Source: Stenopsyche tienmushanensis
Lineage: Eukaryota > Arthropoda > Insecta > Trichoptera > Stenopsychidae
NCBI GenBank assembly: GCA_008973525.1
Contig: WACJ01000059.1
Coordinates: 1,054,001-1,118,000 of the forward strand
Length of the DNA stretch: 64,000 nucleotides
Reading direction: 5' to 3'
Every line of letters begins with the position of its first letter. The stretch's first letter is position 1. This document shows, piece by piece, positions 48,758 through 62,515 of this stretch. The notes beneath the pieces were generated by a model. The model saw only the letters and a list, made by a program, of their open reading frames with translations. It had not been told where the DNA came from and did no database searches. Made by a program: the position numbers and the translations under genes.

Positions 48758-51700
48758 TTGTATTTTGCGATTACAATGGCTCCGGCAGATCTCTTCAGTT
48801 CTTGGAAGACTACATCCAGAAGGAAGTTTTGCCAACGCACGGAGGAACTTGCTCATCGATGTCAAACACCTCTCTCCAATCAAATTTGTACAAGTGAGTT
48901 TCATCCTATATGGCTATTGTTTATAATTTAAGACTATGAACAATAGAAATCAAGCAAAAAAACATTATCTAAAAATATTTGTATGTAAATAAAGCGCTGA
49001 TTCACTGTTTTCGTTTGCGTTTTCGGCTTGACAGGTTCAACTACCTTTTTGTTCGGGAAATCATTAAATGCGAATATTCAAAGAGACGTTCAGGAAGCGT
49101 CACTTCTGCCAAATATTTGGCAGTCGCATAAATTCGTGCCAAGTGAATTATAAACTTCTGAGAAGCTAAAAAATCGTTCACATTTCTCTTACATATAAGC
49201 TAATCTCCAGCCTTTCAGGAGCGCCAATGTGAATTACTTTTCATCAATCAATTGATTTGAAAACCAAATATATGTGTCATACAAAGACCCTCTTATCTGA
49301 ACAGTGGAAAAATACAAGAGCGTCTGAATCAATAACAAATAATTTATCACAAAATGCAAAATATATTATACGTATGGTAAAAGAGTATCGATAAATATGA
49401 AAATCTTAAACCTGACAACCAAGTGCAGAACTAGTGCCAAAATCATATGCAGTCATGCAGAGTTTCCGTGTTTTAATACAAGCATATATTCAAATATCAT
49501 TTTCATTTTTCCGATTTGATACTTCTAATGTATGAAATTGAGAAAGAATTTATTGGGTTCACAGATAAAGACACGCACGAAAAATGATGGAGTATTTTCC
49601 AATCGAATCCATGCCAAATAATAATGTAGAATTTAAAGATATATTTAGAATATGGAAGAACTTAATCAGTTAACTGCATTCCATTCTAAATAGCACAGAC
49701 TAGAATTGTTCATCGTATATAGCCCTTAATACGACTAGTTAATACAGTAAATCTAGAACTCCTCAGAAAGTCTCTAAATCAGAATCTCTCAAACCACTGG
49801 AATATCTAGAATATCAATATTCCCGATCGATCGTCTCGATCTAAGTTTAGCTTGACTTTTTGGATCTGAAAAGATAAATACTGAAGCGATTATGAAATAA
49901 TGACAATGAAATTATTACGTTAAATCAATTTATACGAATGGATAAAAATATTTTAAAAGGTTCTTCTTGATTATGGATTTAATCACTGCAGAAAAGCTTC
50001 AGCATTATATTATGATACCTTTCTATTTCCATACTCACATATGTTTTTGGATAGTTTCTGTATAGCAAAAGATTGTTTTTCATATACATGCTTCTGAATT
50101 CAATTTATAGCTCCATTATAAGTGCATCTTTCATTCTTCAAGTAATACGGATAACAATTAAATTCAATATTTTTCTTTTATTTTAGTTCATATTGACTTT
50201 TAAACATAGAAGATGATTAAGAAATTCAAAAACTGATTGTTCATAATATTCAAATTATTGTACTGCTAAAATATTTGCAATCCACACGTTTGAATTTGTT
50301 TACAAACTGTGCAAAACACATATTAACTTTTTTTTGTGAAATTATAACCCTGTGTGGGCGTACATTATTAGATTTCCCACTGTCTCCCACAGGACTTTAT
50401 TTATAGATTTGACAAATCTTCAATAGCTGTAACTATTTGTAAACATGAAACTCGATGGAATTGTATTGTAGTTTCGGTTTATCACGGATGGCCAACGTGT
50501 CGATAATGAACCCCCGTACTATTGGAAGACACCGAAACAAATTGTTGATAGATTTTCTGCGGTTTCAGTTTATCGCGATTTTCATCATGCCATTTTTTTT
50601 AAAAGAACATGTAACGTACAGATTGTGGCTAACAATAAGTTATTGTGTTGGGCCGTTATCGGCACGACGATCATATGATGGATCCCTTCAAACGTCGGTA
50701 ACGCAAGAGGCCTTCATATCCATCATAATTGTAGCCTATGTACATTGATCTTTTTTTTTTACAGGGAAGAAGCCCGATCTGTCATACATGGTTCATGCAA
50801 TTGCTCCCAGGAAGATGTCGTCCTGCTCGGAGGCTCTCTATCCTTGTTGGTGAGAACCCTTCGGCCCAGAAGTCCCGTCGTTTTTGTGGGACCTTCGGAG
50901 AGCGCTGCTACTCTAGCACCATGGAACGAATGCGGATCCACGGTAAATATTTATTTTTGCCTAACAAAAATAAAACTATTATTTGTTATCTGTGATTATC
51001 TTGGACGATTCCATAATGTCTTTCTCGTGGAAAAGCACTTTGATATGATAATATTTATTTATTTACGTTTTCATCTTCGATCACGTGGACTTGTTCAAAC
51101 GAAAACATTGCTTATCATACAATAGAAAACTATTTAATTGAAAATCGATGATCCACACATGACCCCTGTCGAATGTTTGTTTTCAATCAACAGATTTTAT
51201 TCCGCTTTTTGTTGAAACCAACGCGGAATAATGTTTGCGTTGATAATTTTATTTACACATTATGTAATCAATTATGTTTGATAACATTGTACTTGGTTAG
51301 AGTTACCTTGTGTTGTGAGCTTAAAACCAGCTATGAGCCAGCTGTAAAATAGTTACATATTAATATCTCGATTTTATCAATAAATACGCTTTACTATCTT
51401 ATTTATATGCCAGAATTCAAGTTCTCTTCTTTATGAAGTGTTTGTCTTGATTTCTATGTAAATACATACATGATAAATATACACATTCCCTGACGAACAA
51501 AAATATTTACCACATGGGTAAAAAATCTTCGACTAGACCAAGTGTTATCATTGTAAAACGCTACAGCGTTTATATATTTTGTAAGGTTTCAATTGAAATT
51601 CTAAAACGGATAATAATAGAAAATTTTAACACATTTTTGTCGGGAAATGATGTGTACCTTTTTATCTCTACAGCGGTCAAAACACGAAAATTTCGCCCAA

Positions 51701-54700
51701 AACACATTAAATTACTTTTATAGGATTCAATCTTTTTTTAAATACATAACTCATGCATGTCAACAGGGCTTATCAGGGGATGCTACCCCGGGCCTCGCAA
51801 TATCAGGGGTCTCAAGTAGGGAATCCAATCCCGAACATTTCGATCCCGGGATCCCGAGATCGAGATTTTCTTTATTAGAAATTTTATTTATTTAAGAAAA
51901 GATAAAAATACAAATCAAAAATTAATAAAAAAATCAAATATTGTTTCGAAAATATACCCGAAGTAACATTGAACATCGAGTGTTTCGTCATTTAGCTTGG
52001 ATCTGATTTTGGAAGCCAGACAACTTGCTGCTGAAAATGCACGCTCAGCTTCCACACTCATTGGAAGTATCGTCATCAGATATTTAAATGCTAGTTCGAG
52101 TTGATGACCGCGTGAGCCCCCATTTTCGTCTAAAACCATCAATGTGACTGATAAAATTCCTTTCTGCTGAGACACGGATTAAAACTTGCAAAAATCCCGA
52201 TTTTCCGACAAATTATTTATTTCCATCGCTGCAGATGAATAATTATATACCAAAACACTTTGATGTGATTCGTAATTATATTACGGAAGAATACGAAAAT
52301 TCTGAATCCCGTATCTATCATATTTCATATCGATATTCCCATTATTAGAGTCGAGGTGTAGTAAATACATCACCGGTAGGGAAAGGTCACTATAACAATT
52401 TGAAAAACATATATGTACTGTATATATGTATTCATAGATTAGACAGTTACTGCCCCTAGGCGTCGCCTAAATTGAATGAAATAACTGTTTCTTTGAAAAA
52501 CAAAATATTTCCTGTATATAATACGCATATTGGAATTGTTAAGCTTCAAGAAACATTTCAAGCATGCCAAGAAATAGCAAAAAACCTTTTGATAATGTAT
52601 GCTGTGAATGATTTATGCCATCACAATAACATATAATAAATCCCAAAAGCAAAAAAAAAATTGAACGTTTGAATTGTATACGTTATTTGTTTTATTTTTG
52701 AGATCATTGCGACCTTTGTTTGATAGTTTGAGTTCAATGTCCATGCGTCTCAGACACGTATAGGTCGTGGCCCTTCAAAATACTAGACAAGTAGGGTCAC
52801 AAACCTGTGCCTTTGACGAAGAAGTTCTGCAATTTTTCCTTAAATTATTGATAATTTAAATATACGACTAATTGTTATATATTTTTATTTTTATAGATTA
52901 TACGCATACCGGAAACCAAAGAAGGATTCTTGGACTTGAACACTCTGGAATTAAAACTTCAACAATTTTCTAGCTGTGGACGCAGACTCATTGGTTGCTT
53001 CGCTGCTGCTTCCAGAGTAACAGGAATTTTAGCTGATGATGTAGCCACAACTTTACTTCTTCACCAATATGGTGCATTAGCTGTTTGGGGTTGTACCTTG
53101 TCTGCTGGTGGAAGAGGTCTTGATATGAACCCACTGGTTCAAGGATTGGAAGAAGGTGGAATAGCAGCTAGAAAGGATGCTGCATTCTTCACATGTGCCA
53201 AATATGTAGGAGGTGTACAAGCACCTTCTGTTTTAATTGTTAAGAAGTCTCTATACAAACAAAACCCTATGTTTTCCTGTGACGATGTACAGGTAATATT
53301 GTTGAAATTATTTACCCAGTAAAAAAATAATAGATAAATTAATAGACATATTTTATTCTAAAATATAATTTATAGGATATTATAATGAAAGAAGAGGATT
53401 GTGGATCTGTAGAGGCCGTCAGAGCCGGTCTAGTTGTTCAACTGAAAGATGCTATCGGACAACGTTCCATTGAAGCTAGACAAAATCATATCACTCGGTA
53501 AAGCAAATATGAACATTTATTTATATATGTAAATAAATTCAAATATTCTAATACACTGAATTATTTAATAATATTAAGAAAAGATATTTGTTTTAACGAA
53601 GCACATTAAAAAATAATTAAAAATATAACTATGCATTCAAGCAAAATGTATTCAAATTCAATATTTTATTACATTTATTTCTTTACATTTCAAAATTTTG
53701 AATATTATTATTTGATCTTTCAGACAAGTTTTATCCCATATTAAAAATTTACCGGAGCTAATTGTTCTTGGAAATGATATACCATCCATGAGAAGATTGC
53801 CGATATTCTCATTACTCATAAAGCATCCACGTGGCACATTTCTTCACCATAATTTTGTGTGTGCTGTCCTTAACGATGTGTTTGGCATACAGGCTAGAGG
53901 TGGTTTGAAAAGTACTACAAACTATGGCCAAGAATTATTAGGAATTGATGAAAACTTGGGTAAAGAATATGCTAAACTTCTCGGTGATGATCCGTGAGTA
54001 CAAAATTTATGTTTAATGTGTATATACACGTATATTGAATACAAATGTATAATAGATAAATTATTATTATAGGCGATCTCAACTCGATTATCAAAATATT
54101 GCAAATTCTTTACCACATTATCATGAGCATCTTCGACCGGGCTTTTTCCGAATATCTCTTCCATACTTTATATCCGATGGTGAATTAGCATTTGTCTTGG
54201 AAGCGTTAAAAATGGTTGCTACGGAAGCTTGGAAGATTTTACCACAATACACCGTTAATCCAGAAACGGGTATTTGGACTCATCATACATTTCCTCCGAT
54301 GCGAGATAGAAAATTAATAAAAAGTATACGATACAACGATGGAAAAATGTGTACAAGCGAAAGAAAATTTTCAGGTTTATATTGATTGTTGTTAAAAGAA
54401 TTTTTAAATTCATAATAATCATTTATTTATAATAATATTTTTTGTTTAGGTAATGGAACGTTTCCTCAGACATATTATGAATGTTTACAAACAGCGAGGA
54501 ATTTGTTTAGTAGAGCTAGAAAATCAGCTCAAAAGTGTCCGCTTACGGAGCAGCATATCAAATTTAATGCCAGAGCAGACTATTTGCGTTGGTATATGCT
54601 ACCAAAAGAAGCACATGATTTGTTATTAGGAAACTCTACAAATGTAAAACATATTATTCCATTTGATCCTGCCATGTATAATAGTGGAAGAAAAAGCGTA

Positions 54701-57700
54701 ACAGCATCGTCTGGACATAACTCACCAATCCCCGGAGGATCTCCTAGACATTACAGTTTATCTGCAATAGATACAAATCAATTTTCAATCTTCAATTCAA
54801 TGTATAGACCTCTCTCAAGAGAACCGAGCCTAACAGAACAATCTATTAAACCTAAGCTAGATAATGTTCAATCATCCCCTGTGAAATTTGTCATCGGTGA
54901 CATTGTTACAACGTCTACGTATTCAAATGTTCCTGTTTCTAATTTAATTAGAGCTGAAAATAGACTTTCAAGAGCTAGATGCCATAGCTTAGGATCTGAT
55001 AGTCCGCCCATTGTGAATACAGATAATATCAATGCCATTAAACCAAACCTTGGTACTAATATTTCAAGAGTTGGTAAATTAGATACTTGTAATTGTGGTA
55101 GTCAAACAGATTTGCCATCATTAGAAGATTTTAATAATTCACCTTCTTCGAGTTTTGGATATTTGCGAAACAATATGTCGAATACAGATTTTAATCAATT
55201 AGGCCGGGCTTCTCCAGCTGTTTCTGTAACATCACAAACTTCAGAAGATCTTCAAGCTTATGTCAAAGAAATGACTAAAGAAATAGCAACTGAACTTAAA
55301 TCAGAAATAAGAGAAGTGATTTCTAGAGTCGAAGATGTATTGGAAAATACTGATTCTATTGATATTTCATGCTTAAACTTTAATAATAATCCAGCAGCTG
55401 CATTACCTGACAGAAATTCTGTTTCGGTATCAGACGTTACTGAATACCTCATGGGAGTTTCCAGAGAAATGGCAAGCGAGGTGAAACATGAAATTAGGGA
55501 AATGGTCAATCAGGTCGATGAAATGATTTCACCGGATATAAACTCTTCAAATTCCAGTTTTTGTATATCTTCATCGCCAAATAGTTCTCGTAAAAGTTCA
55601 CCTCCCGATGCCATAAGACGAAGATATAGATCAGGATCTGAAGTTTCATTTGTTAGAACAAAATCAGCAATCCTCGGTAACGAGAATGTAAATGATAGTA
55701 GAACTTTGAAAAAATCTCCAACTAGCCCAGGTTTTTCTACGATGATTGGATCTAGTCAAGTATTTCAAGAAGAAGATAATTCAACATTTTTTCGAGGTCA
55801 ACAAAAAACAAGTCTACCCTCAACAAGCTCCCTGTCGCCGCAACGTACACCCGATTCTTTATCACACGACATTCTTAGTACTGGAAATTTGTCATTCAAT
55901 TCAAGCGAGACTTCAAGCCCTGATACAATTATTCAAGTCTTAAGCGCTACAACAAACACTAACTTATTACCAAAGTCCAGCAGCTCTCATAAATTATCAG
56001 ATGATGATAATTCTTGTACTGAAAGCGATTGCCAAAGATTATGTTATAAAACTAAAACATGGTACCACAATAATTCTGTTAGCTCTCAAGATAGTGGCAT
56101 AAATATGTCGTTTCATGATCACGATGGCTGTCATGATTTAGGTACACAAAATTGCATTCATTCTTCCAATAGATTAATTAAATAAAATTACATTTTCAAT
56201 AATTAATTACGGATCATATTTGCAGTCAAAAGACGTCCTCATTCTGATACAACTTGCTATAAAAAGAAAAGGACACAATCGCGTTTAAAAAGTGCGTGTG
56301 TCATGCAAAGACAAGAAAAAAGCGAAGTACCCGATATAATTGAAGGAGTACCCGTATGCTCTGGAGAGCATAAGTCTCATTTTAACAAACCGCATTATCA
56401 TGAATCAGAATCTTCTCACGATTGTGGACGCTGTCAAGAATTTGAATCCAGAGAAGAAAAGTATAATTGTAATTCAAATAATTTCTGAATTGTTTTTTAA
56501 TCTGATATTTTTAAATGTGTCTTTATTAATTTTTAGATCTTCATGCTCGACTTCTGATTCGATGAGTACTAAACATACTAATAGGACATCTACTGTAAGT
56601 TCTCTGGATCCAACCGATTATTCTAGGAAATCAAGTTTTAATACTGATTCTTATAGTTCTAATAGATCTAGTTTGGTTACCACTACTGATGATTTTGCCA
56701 GGTAGTTAACATCAACTATTTCACTATTTTACTAAATCATTCATTTATAAATAAAGTAATTTAATTCACTTATTATTATTAATTTTCAGATGTTCAGATC
56801 CGTCATGTTGTCATTTAGAATCTGCTACTGACGTCACTACAACGAGCAATATGTGTCGCAGCAGATTGAGTTCACACAGCAGCAGTAGTACTGAATACCC
56901 GGATGATTTTGTTTTTGAAGATGATGGAAAATGGCACTGTCCACCTAAATCAGTATGGAAAGGAACAATCGAAGTAAGATCCTTTTTTCTCGTCATTTAA
57001 TGTATTTATTCAATCATTTATTGTAATATTTCATAATTTTAATTCTAGGCAGTGCAGGAATATACTATGATTCGACACCAAGACAAAATTTTAGTCTGCT
57101 TATCTGGAGGGGTACATTCTCTTACTCTTCTTCATACATTACACCAATATCAATTCTATGCAAGAGCAAAAGGAATTATTTTTTCAATAGGTTTGTGCAC
57201 GGCAAAATGTTATTATATTTGTTTTTTTTAATTCAACGTGATACGCCTTTTTAATGTTAATATAAACCATTTTAGGCGCAATAACTATTAATGATGGTCA
57301 CTCGGATACAGATCCGTTGCATCTTATGGCATACTGCAAAACTCTCGGCGTTAAATATATATATCAAGACAATAGTTTCAGCGGTCCACCCCAAAATACA
57401 TGTAAGCTGAATTGTTATGATATTACGTTTAATTAGTCGTGTAAGATTTGATCTTTCCTTTTGACTATCCATTATTTAAACTATTTACAGCACTAAGCAG
57501 AACCGTTCGTGATAGAGATCTCTGCAGTTTTACAAATCATTGGATTCGTCGTCAAATCTATAGGTCTGCTAATGAACACGGATATAATGTTGTGGCTACC
57601 GGGCAACATTTAGATGATGTTGCAAGAAGTTTTATAATGTCGGTGTTCAATAACGGGAGACTTAAATCGATGAAAGCACATTATATGATAAGGTTCGTTA

Positions 57701-58525
57701 TTATTAATTTCATCGTCTTTTAGTTAGTTTAACTGCTTTTTAAAAATCATATATTATTCGTCCTTAAATTAACAAATATAATTGAAATAAAGTGTATAAA
57801 CGCTGAATATAAAAAGTATACATTTTTAATTTCGAATTACAGAGAGCAGAATTTAAGAGTTATTCGGCCTTTCATATATGTTAGAGAAAAAAGCTTAACA
57901 CAATTTGCTGATTCCTGTCATCTTCCTTCATTTACTTCTTATCACATTGGAGATCAATCATCTGAATCTTTCATAAATTTGCTCGACGAAGCTACATGTT
58001 CTAACGCTTCAGAAAGTAATGAAAACAGAAACAGCTCTGAACCCATTACATCATCGTCAAGGTATTTTATATAAGATCTTATTAGCTAAAATACACATTC
58101 ATGAATCAATAAAGTAAGTTTGAATTATTTTTATTTCACAGCAAAGTTAATCGCTCTTTATCGGCACCCGCTGATGCTAACAAACAAAAGAAAGAATATT
58201 CTGGTCGAACTCGTGCCACTTCTGCACCTTGCGTGCCTCCGACGACACTTTTGGCTCACCAAGAAGCGTTACATCCTGGATTGTTTGCTAATATTAAATC
58301 TGCATTACATCCACTTATAAGTGCTAGGTAATTTAATACAATTTTTTAATATACGCAATTTTGACTCATTTATAATACAAATTTAAATCCATTTTGTTCA
58401 TTTTTAGAAACATTGAAAAGGATATGAAAGAATATAGGCACCGAAAGCGATCAGTTATCCAAATGAAAAATGGAGTGCCTGTATACAATTCTGATGAAGG
58501 TACTGACGAAGAACCGGTGCCGTGA
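48758..58525 (+). CDS. fusion protein: class V aminotransferase-like domain + linker + TtcA-like PP-loop domain (5' end missing)
   Basis: Sixteen exons: 48758-48893, 50765-50942, 52897-53292, 53376-53497, 53724-53993, 54073-54374, 54450-56141, 56226-56460, 56537-56701, 56790-56973, 57049-57190, 57276-57401, 57491-57692, 57843-58061, 58142-58327 and 58408-58525. Every junction is GT..AG and every phase matches, giving 1,556 residues from the first full codon to TGA. Residues 1-467 show the class V aminotransferase fold (cysteine desulfurase/selenocysteine lyase type), 468-1226 a Ser/Thr/Asn-rich linker, and 1227-1456 a PP-loop domain like TtcA, which thiolates tRNA cytidine. Residues 1457-1556 are a mostly polar tail. 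The first exon lacks an initiator and begins in phase 1 inside the domain, so one or more 5' exons are missing. Key active-site residues are altered in both halves, while the frame is fully open. Exon structure is seen directly; the families are recognised from motifs; the function (sulfur transfer, scaffold or other) is unknown. Confidence 0.93.
49790..49885 (+). repeat. short dispersed repeat, SINE-like (copy 3), in intron
   Basis: It contains TATTCCCGATCGATCGTCTC, then aagtttagcttgactttttg and an A-rich end, matching the body of the copy at 6.2 kb and the motif at 26.7 kb. It lies in the intron between the exons ending at 48893 and starting at 50765, in the same orientation as the gene. 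Confidence 0.45.
51817..52470. mobile_element. truncated hAT element with transposase C-terminal remnant (copy 3), in intron
   Basis: The left end TAGGGAATCCAATCCCGAAC starts at 51817 and the sequence follows the 11662-12594 copy to about 52470, where homology stops abruptly in cgtcgcctaa, so the right terminal repeat is missing. The minus strand (51915-52175) is open for 86 codons and includes FKYLMTILPMSVEAERAFSA and SKIRSKLNDETLDVQCYF. This is the hAT C-terminal dimerisation domain with its conserved Ser-x-Glu-Arg-x-Phe-Ser-like core, here SVEAERAFS. It sits in the intron between 50942 and 52897, antisense to the host gene. No target duplication is visible because one end is lost. Confidence 0.85.
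54450..56973 (+). other. module 2: long low-complexity linker with repeated amphipathic helix
   Basis: The 1,692-base exon 54450-56141 and three short exons encode ~750 residues rich in Ser, Thr and Asn, with many Ser-Pro and Arg-x-x-Ser sites, hence probably disordered and phosphorylatable. Two similar helical segments stand out: AYVKEMTKEIATELKSEIRE (about residues 736-755, genomic ~55256-55315) and EYLMGVSREMASEVKHEIRE (~55443-55502). Each is followed by a short acidic hydrophobic stretch (VISRVEDVL, MVNQVDEMI). This is an internal duplication likely to form a coiled-coil or dimer contact. Later exons hold Cys clusters: DCGRC (~56419-56433) and CSDPSCCH (56791-56814). If the donor at 56142 is not used, translation continues 14 codons to a TAA at 56183-56185 and yields a form without the PP-loop domain. 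Confidence 0.8.
57049..58327 (+). other. module 3: TtcA-like PP-loop ATPase domain with altered motifs
   Basis: Encoded by exons 57049-57190 to 58142-58327. After YTMIRHQDKILVCL comes the P-loop, here SGGVHS (residues 1245-1250; SGGxDS in active PP-loop enzymes, His codon at 57115-57117). The second signature, VATGQHLDDVARSFIMSVFN, keeps the two Asp of the family's GHxxDD. In TtcA an iron-sulfur cluster is held by two Cys of a CxxC and a distant Cys. Here the CxxC is CSFT (1327-1330), followed by the expected IRRQIYR, and the distant region reads HLPSFTSYHIG without Cys. The VIRPFIYVREKSL segment and the later HPGLFANIKSALHPL agree with the TtcA fold. No zinc-ribbon of the CTU1 type was seen. 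ATP hydrolysis and thiolation are therefore uncertain; nucleotide or tRNA binding remains possible. Confidence 0.85.
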
Positions 58526-61500
58526 TCAAAACAATGTTTTTATTTGGTTTTGAATTTGCAAATTTAATTTATTTTACGATGTAGCCTTTCGTCGAGGTTT
58601 CAATAATATGAGTGTGTTATAAATCATGTAATATTTAACGTGAATGTAAATGAATTAACACTTTTAAATAGACATGCATCTATATTTTTGTGTAAATCGA
58701 GAAGTATTTTGTTATTTGCGAGAGTGTAAAAGCATTTAAAATATTGTCATGGTTTCATGACGTTGATTGATTTACACCAAAAAATATTTTTTACGCCTGT
58801 TTTATAAAATAATACGTTCACTGTAAATGTTTACAGCATATTTTATATACAATGAAATTTACACGAGATACAATATTTATTTTCATACTTGTTAACATTT
58901 ATTATATCGAAAGATCTGTACAACAGTTGATACATTTTGTTGTGAATATTGATTCAACGTAAGATGTTTGATTTTTGAAGAAGAGCATGCAGCAAATGCT
59001 GGTTATCTATCAAGTTTGCATCGGACATTAAGTATCGCTCAATTTACATTCAAACCTTATTTAAAATTTGCATATATTATTTCTTAAGTTTTATACTTAT
59101 ATTTAGTTATTTTCATATTTTATATTTATATTAACTATTATTTCATGTATTCTACGTTAAAATGTGTATTTTTTAAAAAGGAAAAAATCATTGGTGATGA
59201 TAAAAGATAGGTTTACGATCAATTTTAATGAATATAATAATAAGAATGCATCTCATCAATATGTTACATACGCTACATAGTATAGTTTAAAAATAGGTAT
59301 CTTGTTTTGATATTATTTGACTTCATTATAAAATAATAATAGAACTGATAGCTCTACCTTTGAACATAGGGTAACTATAAATATGATAGATTTTAATATC
59401 CATATTATATTCGTACAATTAAGGATTTTTAAAATATATTTATTCTTAATTTCCCTATTTTTTTGTAACGTTTAAAATGTAAATATTTTACAGTTAGATT
59501 ATTTTGAAACCCTTCATAATTTTCACCGTTACTATTTGATTTTCATAATTTTATAAATATCAGATTATATATTTAATGTATATAAACATCACAATATACT
59601 ATAAGCTGAAGATTATATTATACTAACAATATTTATAATTCGTTATCTTTTTAAAAATTATATACATGTTTGTTCCTTTTATTATCACATGATTTGAAAA
59701 AGATGGGCTCAAATTAATGGTATGTACTTTATAATTACCATAATAATATACCAAAATAACTCGTTCATATTGAATATTGTCAATGAACGAAATGATAATA
59801 TTTTAACATGGATATGATCCCATTTTAACACTATCGTGGCCGTATCAAATAAGCAAAAACTTACGCTAGCGGCCGGCAACTTCCTTTTAATATTTAGTTG
59901 CAGATATAAAATTAATTCACCGTATTCATTGATTACTGATGTACATGATCATGATGCATATGTGGCATCATGTGGCCGCCAATGATCGAACCCGTGATGA
60001 TGCAAAATTTGCATCACCAGCCACGAATGTGTTTAAACACAAGACTAATTTCATTCTTATAATAATTTATTAATACATTTTAGAATGCCATTGAGAAGTG
60101 CGGCTATCAAGACACTATTTCTGAAATAAGCTGGGTTTAATATTAATATTTTAAGACGAATCTCGATGTTAGATTCTCATCTAAAATAATAAAATAAATC
60201 TGAGTTAGTTTTCGAAAGAGAAAAAACAATTTTATTATTAATATATGTTCTGTTATCATTGCACAATAGTAAAAATGAAAAGTTTATAAGTGTGCAACTA
60301 CTGTTATTATTTAATAATATTATTCAACATTTAATATTAAAATCAAAATAGTATTTAAATAATTGCTTTGTGTATAATCTAGGTATAAACTTCAGATGTG
60401 TTACACAATGAATTGAATTAAATAAGATAGCTGAAAAATAATTTCATAGATTGTTATGAACCAAGTTTTGAACTTTTGGAGTCGGAGTTAAAACATTGCT
60501 TATTGTTATCGACACAAATAGTCATTTACATATGACAAAAATCCTAATCAAATCTGCTACTTTATAAAAAATATAAAAGATATATATTTATTTTAACACA
60601 AAATCGATGAGTTTTATTTTGATTGACGCCCCAATCAAGATAAAACTTATTGTTTAAAAAACTCAATGTTATGTAATTACGAATATATATTTTAACGAAC
60701 CATGAAATTATTGTACTCTAAAATATATTTTATCAAATACTTTTGAATATGTGCCAATTTAAAAATCTATTAAAGTTACAACAGTATTATAACATTTACT
60801 TCAGTAGTTGTTCACGTAAAATATCTAAATAGTTGATTCATAATAGATATATATACACATATTGAAACATTATAAATAGAACTGTTATTGAAAAAAATGT
60901 TTACGGACATCAAAATCCATTTGATGTTTATAGATGTATAATTATATCGATAGTTGATATATATATATTTGTTAATCTCCTGCGTGAATATGTATATTTT
61001 TTTGCACATGTGTTTCACACCGCTAAATTTTTCCTAAAGTTATTTTTCTCGTAGTCATGTAGGAAATAAGGTTGTAACTATTTTTTTAAATTGTTGGAAT
61101 CAATTTAAGCGTATTGTGAATGTTATTTTTATATCTATTAATACATATATGAAAGGATTCATCTTAGGATTGATCATGTAAATTTTTTTCATTTATAATG
61201 GATGTTATAAAGGCATTATATAGTCTTCCTGATTATCAAATGGTGGACCTTTATAATATATCTTTTTATTTTACTCTTACAAAGTAATAATTTGCTTATC
61301 AAATCTGAATCGGTTAATTTCCGGCAAATTAACGTAGATAATCTTAACATTAGACTGAAATGAAATGCTTCAGTTTTTTAGTTGTTTTACTAAAACGACT
61401 TTAAAAATTTAACTAAAAAAGACATCCATCCTCTTTTAGATTTGCTACATTTAATCGTTTGAGTTATCACGTTTGGATAAATAATTTTCATGGCTAGTCT

Positions 61501-61800
61501 TATGTTAATAATGAATTTATATAGATTTCTACAAATTAACATTTAGTTCTTTATACCGAAAATATTTTTTTAATAATGTGAACATTATTGTTTGTGAAAT
61601 ATATGTAAATATACTTTTAAGAAACTGTATTTTGCAAATATTATAAATGTTTCTTTTGCTAAATGATTGTTTTATTATGTCATTTGTCCATTTATGCCTT
61701 AACATTAAAATATATTACATAATTTTTGTTTGTCCATTCATTTTTTATGCTTTTGAGTAAAATAAACATTTACAAACATAATTAAAAAAAGTGTTTTTAT
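58526..61800 (+). other. probable long 3' UTR of the fusion gene
   Basis: No coding signal is seen for 3.2 kb after the stop; the sequence is extremely A+T-rich and free of recognisable transposon ends. A weak polyadenylation candidate, AATAAA at 60193-60198, lacks a GT-rich element. The one at 61761-61766 is followed by gtgtttttattgctatttat and is the better choice. TGTAnATA (Pumilio-type) sites occur at 59478, 59577 and 61604, but at this composition that is near chance. Confidence 0.5.
61761..61766 (+). terminator. polyadenylation signal candidate for the fusion gene
   Basis: Canonical AATAAA, followed about 25 bases later by a GT/T-rich stretch. Inferred from motif and position only. Confidence 0.4.
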
Positions 61801-62515
61801 TGCTATTTATTTTTTATTACATGCATAAATAATTTATGTTCCAGAAATCAAAGTCATCCTAACACTCCGTATACGTTAATATTTGTTATATTTTAATCTT
61901 TTTATTTAAATGCACCATCCCAAAATAGATGCATAAAAAATATTGATTCGTTTTATCAGCACTATATTTTTTACTAATAAGATAAGTCAATTGCAGAATA
62001 CATAAAGGTCATGATAAAAGTGTGCATAAGATTGATTATTAAATTCGACAGCGGTCAAAACGTAAATTGATCATATGAACGTCTTAAATATTTTATGTGC
62101 ATCATGGTCTTGTAATAAAATTTAGGCACATTATAAATATCAATATTATAAAATAAATTTTAAATTTATCATGATCATTTTCAAATGCATATCATATACA
62201 TTAATGTATATAATTGATTAATCCAAATCAAATACTTTAAAAAGCTTTTAATTGTTATATAGATTAGTGATTGCGGGTAAATAAAAGAGTCGAGTGCTAA
62301 AAATAATATTTTATTATGCAAACATAGGGATAATAATAACAAATTCTGGGCATAAATATGAATGTATTATTTTGTATCGTTGTATTTGAATGAATTCATT
62401 GAAATAATAAAAGTGGAGTGATATTTTAGAATCATGTGAGTTGTTCTAGTTAAATATGCTGCGGACGAACAACATAAAAGCTTCTACGGAGGAATTTCAT
62501 TTCATTTTGTGCGGA
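61801..62515. other. intergenic stretch between convergent genes
   Basis: A+T-rich, with no recognisable exon, RNA gene or repeat. It separates the likely 3' ends of the plus-strand fusion gene and the minus-strand metallothionein. Confidence 0.45.

Follow-up and report, generated by a model that had tools for sequence, protein, structure and literature searches.

A trichopteran orthologue of an ancient animal fusion of SufS-like and TtcA-like domains, with most tested catalytic residues lost

As the relevant passages of a review describe it (PMC5372739), bacterial TtcA requires the desulfurase IscS as well as a [4Fe-4S] cluster whose ligands are three Cys from two CXXC motifs; the same passages list 2-thiocytidine at tRNA position 32 (s2C32) for bacteria and archaea and name no eukaryotic case. 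In Bacillus, according to the parts of a study that deal with the pair, the desulfurase YrvO serves the tRNA thiolase MnmA, and an engineered MnmA-YrvO fusion works in cells (PMC10219651). Both are comparable with the gene described here, the first in that one tRNA thiolase has a desulfurase of its own and the second as a fused pair; the second differs in being a laboratory fusion, in drawing on another PP-loop family and in naming the thiolase first. Our gene occupies positions 48758–58525 (plus strand) of a window of 64,000 nucleotides from Stenopsyche tienmushanensis (Trichoptera; GenBank assembly GCA_008973525.1, contig WACJ01000059.1, positions 1,054,001 to 1,118,000 of the forward strand), where sixteen joined GT-AG exons give a single open frame of 1556 residues without internal stop. 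On sequence comparison it is the orthologue of an ancient animal fusion of a SufS-like class V head and a TtcA-like PP-loop head; in Stenopsyche most of the catalytic residues tested have been lost and the protein remains whole. We found no earlier description of an animal class V-TtcA fusion in the open-licence PubMed Central literature, and the arrangement is apparently undescribed.

The class V head is encoded by exons 1–6 (48758..48893, 50765..50942, 52897..53292, 53376..53497, 53724..53993 and 54073..54374), from its start at VFCDYNGSG in exon 1 to its end in exon 6. It is SufS-like by sequence comparison, and a structure model with fold search recovered a class V desulfurase fold for an intact relative, P0134, which confirms on that relative the cysteine-desulfurase fold proposed in an earlier, sequence-only reading of the window. 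Structure predictions were made on P0134 and a second relative, the hemipteran P0118; the Stenopsyche heads are known from sequence alone. The Stenopsyche head does not reach the Pfam PF00266 cut-off and is assigned by homology, and three intact relatives score 115–130 bits against an NCBIfam SufS cut-off of 475. Its likeness to SufS/CsdA-type (group II) desulfurases lies in sequence kinship, a fold that it probably shares by homology and the column of the Lys that binds pyridoxal 5'-phosphate (PLP), to which intact relatives add the catalytic-Cys column; the Stenopsyche head differs in having lost Cys, His and Asp. In exon 3, VWGCTL (53083–53112) has G in place of the PLP-binding Asp, and CAKYVGG (53194–53214) has A in place of the His beside the Lys; in exon 5, RGGLKST (53896–53922) replaces the catalytic-Cys motif RGGCACAG. 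Five residues at the GHGCTG loop are gone in Stenopsyche and in moths, as is the loop GGGTVFFVTR of intact relatives, which in Stenopsyche is absent beside junction 3. The sequence-only reading had described both heads as lacking signature residues; the losses are as it described them, but the PLP Lys is actually kept, within CAKYVGG.

The PP-loop head begins behind the end of the spacer in exon 10 (56790..56973; WHCPPKSVWKGTIE) and continues through exons 11 (57049..57190), 12 (57276..57401) and 13 (57491..57692) to its end in exon 14 (57843..58061). TtcA is its best family match, as proposed earlier, at 120 bits against the NCBIfam cut-off of 272, for which three intact relatives reach 179–191 bits; this TtcA-like assignment draws on sequence profiles, the fold-search rows listed being class V only. 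Intact relatives share SGGKDS, CxxC, CPAC and HLDD with TtcA (tRNA C32 2-thiocytidine synthetase), and like them group I TtcA has two CXXC in the part of PMC3980101 that sets out the groups. The animal protein differs from TtcA in being fused behind a desulfurase, and Stenopsyche in having neither SGGxDS nor either CxxC. SGGVHS (57103–57120) stands in place of SGGKDS and LCSFTN (57520 on) in place of CxxC, and the second CXXC is lost too, the residues at the position of the relatives' ENCPAC motif being FTSYHIG (57931–57951); an automated third-Cys score had credited Stenopsyche there through misplaced gaps. GQHLDD (57601–57618) is retained. The thiouridylases TtuA, NcsA and Ctu1 have PP-loop kinship and the CxxC and third-Cys positions in common with the second head but lie farther from it (E 1.6e-13), and the same part of PMC3980101 gives their group II five CXXC(H) motifs.

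The distribution of the fusion was drawn from three protein searches, with Stenopsyche residues 1–500 (352 matches), a cockroach class V head (7997) and the PP-loop head from Oscarella, a sponge (850), the best 120 matches of each being considered and insect orders and other groups being assigned from genus names. The Stenopsyche query ranks by the first head only, and the Oscarella query, whose ranking follows similarity to an intact PP head, favours intact proteins. Among the best 120 of 352 matches, which are 1127–1707 residues long, 103 are insects and the other 17 are entries from a source labelled lgn, the five placed on a tree all grouping with insects. In four lgn entries (P0009, P0031, P0033 and P0040), contigs of 4.9–6.3 kb carry an intron-free frame about 1500 codons long, consistent with spliced mRNA. 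The insect orders among the matches listed are Lepidoptera, Orthoptera, Blattodea, Phasmatodea, Thysanoptera, Hemiptera, Coleoptera and Hymenoptera; these matches also place a two-head protein in sponges, Trichoplax, cnidarians, echinoderms, molluscs, annelids, a bryozoan, tardigrades, a rotifer, arachnids including ticks, crustaceans, tunicates and the choanoflagellate Monosiga. By BLAST, the class V head precedes the PP-loop head in all 211 proteins that have both, out of 353 examined; the remaining 142 failed the two-head criterion, many being fragments, short class V proteins or short paralogues admitted by the length limit of the cockroach-head search. The arrangement is not peculiar to Stenopsyche, the two-head order extending from a choanoflagellate to cockroaches, and arthropod relatives with this order and their catalytic residues do exist, non-holometabolan insects being intact. 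Both active sites are intact in sponge and tick relatives as well. No dipteran or vertebrate is named among the best 120 of each list, no search having been aimed at those groups. Database titles call the fusion proteins "uncharacterized" or give them TtcA names, and a krill study (PMC3714250) names a TtcA as one of the transcripts whose levels follow a sinusoidal course over the day.

Class V relatives without a second head were seen as well. Stand-alone animal proteins of about 660–810 residues (for example P0164–P0170 and P0229) come from echinoderms, cnidarians, Branchiostoma and a tunicate, some of them titled "probable cysteine desulfurase", and several such animals, including Antedon, Nematostella and Asterias rubens, also have the fusion. 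Bacterial stand-alone relatives (L001–L080) show 44–50% identity, and many are titled actinobacterial or Acidimicrobiia.

Eight features were scored across lineages: PLP Lys, His, Asp and the SufS-position Cys in the first head, and SGGKDS, CxxC, the third Cys and GQHLDD in the second. In the insect set a gap was scored as a miss; scoring was lenient for the third Cys and strict for SGGKDS. All eight are present in all 10 rows from non-holometabolan insects, in none of the 41 lepidopteran rows (some of which are isoforms from a single species) or the 20 beetle rows, in two of 32 hymenopteran rows and in one of 17 lgn rows. Among 91 other two-head proteins, 76 of the 79 without gaps have all eight and the three exceptions deviate in GQHLDD only; the 12 left out for a gap at a motif include P0214, with TPRVDN at the SGGKDS columns. 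Lepidoptera keep the PLP Lys (41/41) and Asp (40/41, with one gap) and have no His, Cys, SGGKDS or CxxC; in Stenopsyche, His, Asp, Cys, SGGKDS and CxxC are all gone, and Lys and GQHLDD remain. Beetles retain the class V Cys in 17 of 20 rows, SGGKDS in 16 and CxxC in one. All 32 hymenopteran rows have the full set of class V features, 31 have CxxC, six the third Cys and two SGGKDS, the deviation from SGGKDS often amounting to a single residue. Beetle rows P0113, P0116 and P0117 (Pyrocoelia, Abscondita and Photinus, which we take to be firefly genera) have N at the SufS-position Cys, separately from the moth loss.

A 55-row tree was built with the scored columns removed, by a quick method with support from the Shimodaira-Hasegawa-like approximate likelihood-ratio test (SH-aLRT) and no bootstrap. 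Stenopsyche is sister to 14 lepidopteran rows (SH-aLRT 100), with branches of 0.39 and 0.45, a placement that fits a caddisfly or an early-branching moth lineage. On this tree the PP-loop signature changes at least four times, CxxC at least five times and the SufS-position Cys twice. Most class V losses are common to Stenopsyche and Lepidoptera, with the Asp lost in Stenopsyche alone; the PP head losses differ between the two, so part of the decay followed their split.

Between the heads lies a spacer that follows the post-head region in exon 7 (54450..56141) and continues through exon 8 (56226..56460), where DIIEGVPVCSG (56333–56365) is shared with Lepidoptera, and the Ser-rich, poorly aligning exon 9 (56537..56701). 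Its median length is 697 residues (390–777) in 120 insect-set rows, against 204 in the 91 other two-head proteins, where truncated rows make some values negative. Two stretches of about 35 residues have a strong helical moment, reached in either case by none of 1000 shuffles: amphipathic helix A (55241..55357, residues 732–770) and amphipathic helix B (55418..55531, residues 791–828). Profiles of the helices match 121 of 121 insect-set rows and eight of 232 other proteins, three of these eight being Hemiptera and five having no legible organism name; insect entries P0121, P0122 and P0176 (495–804 residues, without a PP head) gave no match. Among the organisms identified, the long helix-bearing spacer is seen in insects only. 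Behind the second head, exon 15 (58142..58327) holds a variable linker and the start of a conserved C-tail, which exon 16 (58408..58525) completes with the residues TDEEPVP and a TGA stop ending at 58525.

Conservation is unevenly spread over these parts. Between Stenopsyche and 25 lepidopteran rows, identity is 82 and 88% in the helices and 71% in the C-tail, against 58 and 53% in the heads. Nine non-holometabolan rows show the reverse order, with heads at 81 and 84%, helices at 73 and 57% and the C-tail at 64%. Compared with non-holometabolans, the helices of Stenopsyche are 70 and 57% identical, about as much as those of non-holometabolans among themselves, and its heads 54–55%; for Hymenoptera the helices are likewise at 70 and 57% and the heads at 65–66%. 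Judged by these identities, the heads evolved faster and the helices did not.

The earlier proposal of a self-contained thiolation machine that has since degenerated is supported by relatives that have the same order with both active sites intact. Of the refuting outcomes named with that proposal, neither separate genes in relatives nor, for the class V head of P0134, another fold was seen. In the intact form, by analogy with bacterial IscS and TtcA, the first head would move sulfur from cysteine onto the GGCACAG Cys as a persulfide, this sulfur would move on to the PP-head cluster, and the second head, using ATP and the [4Fe-4S] cluster, would attach it to tRNA, probably as 2-thiocytidine in the ancestral enzyme. 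The fusion would then be a dedicated sulfur channel. We consider it likely that in Stenopsyche this former cis desulfurase-thiolase has turned into a pseudoenzyme scaffold. The sulfur chemistry would be gone in Stenopsyche and Lepidoptera, and the protein would serve by presenting two amphipathic helices and the C-tail on folded heads, probably in pairs, the usual arrangement for class V folds. Helices and C-tail may bind a partner or a membrane, and selection would now act on them.

Several observations weigh against this scaffold interpretation. Confidence in the helices predicted for hemipteran P0118 is low to modest, with a block pLDDT (predicted local distance difference test) of about 50–68, and the helix profiles were trained on the insect rows themselves. 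A 14-residue stretch around DIIEGVPVC, 84% identical between Stenopsyche and the 25 lepidopteran rows, rivals helix A, and the Stenopsyche and moth heads are still fairly conserved. A bacterial operon linking the two heads was sought around 80 class V loci (the best 80 of at least 554), and none had a TtcA-like tblastn match (1e-3) in its flanks, which extend up to 8 kb and are shorter for several loci at contig ends. In Hymenoptera, loss of activity is not certain from the residues, since the class V set and nearly every CxxC are kept and SGGKDS is often one change away. Finally, PLP binding and some activity may persist in the first head, given the Lys in Stenopsyche and all lepidopteran rows and the Asp in 40 of those 41.

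This last point leads to the strongest of the alternatives, namely that the first head still works as a PLP enzyme but catalyses a different reaction, the catalytic Cys being dispensable for non-desulfurase class V chemistry. The near-complete retention of Lys and Asp in Lepidoptera speaks for it, as does the 82% likeness of lepidopteran class V heads among one another. However, the Asp too is gone in Stenopsyche (VWGCT), and Stenopsyche and the moths alike are without the His, the five GHGCTG-loop residues and the GGGTVFFVTR loop; we regard this alternative as unlikely. Still less probable is that the gene is merely decaying, with no remaining function. Heads that evolve faster than in non-holometabolans and several independent losses would fit such decay, but the frame is open in Stenopsyche, 41 long lepidopteran proteins are found (1328–1550 residues, two labelled partial), and helices and C-tail have changed little between Stenopsyche and moths. 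That two adjacent genes were wrongly joined at 56141/56226 is scarcely credible, and we reject it: the open frame of exon 7 does have its own stop at 56185, but orthologues are single proteins through this junction, with models in eight insect orders besides the intron-free lgn frames, and DL/VKRRPHSD of Stenopsyche aligns with DF/AKWRTSSD of Tuta, Pectinophora also being continuous.

The gene model stands as one gene, as the sequence-only reading held, and its sixteen phase-consistent exons are borne out by the GT-AG joins, the single frame and most of the junctions. When the 15 junctions were compared with orthologues from Tuta, Pectinophora, Bombyx and Periplaneta, the sequence ran on into at least two moths at 12 (1–7, 10–13 and 15); at junctions 8, 9 and 14 the sequence is variable and gapped, which leaves frame and splice signals as the only support. 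At junction 7, Bombyx and Periplaneta are gapped. The 3' border of exon 7 is 56141 (AG/GTACAC), and 56185, previously given as an exon end, is the end of its open frame only. The C-terminus, TDEEPVP, coincides with the end of the Tuta protein, and the model is about 65 residues shorter than Tuta at the N-terminus. A search for the exon 5' of exon 1, by tblastn with orthologue N-termini and by peptide patterns over 20000–48760 of the plus strand, gave nothing convincing. Positions 1–48757 form a long stretch without an open reading frame of at least 130 amino acids, and intron 1 of the full gene probably has a great length. Elsewhere in the window, intron 2 holds on the minus strand a remnant resembling the C-terminal dimerisation region of hAT transposases (51915–52178; Pfam E 0.0037, under the curated cut-off), and 60001–62000 is the 2-kb block of lowest G+C (0.233).

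A broader history, on which our judgement is evenly divided, is that animals inherited a self-contained desulfurase-TtcA enzyme from a unicellular ancestor, and that it makes a thionucleoside unreported in eukaryotes, most likely 2-thiocytidine. Insects would have added the helix spacer, and Holometabola would have dropped the chemistry repeatedly in parallel, in the PP-loop head of beetles and wasps and in both heads of moths, while keeping the scaffold. That the fusion has kept its active sites from a choanoflagellate through to cockroaches leads one to expect an animal tRNA modification not yet reported, together with a dedicated desulfurase. In insects, this one protein would be a case in which catalytic residues were lost repeatedly and in parallel, with selection shifting to a new helical module.
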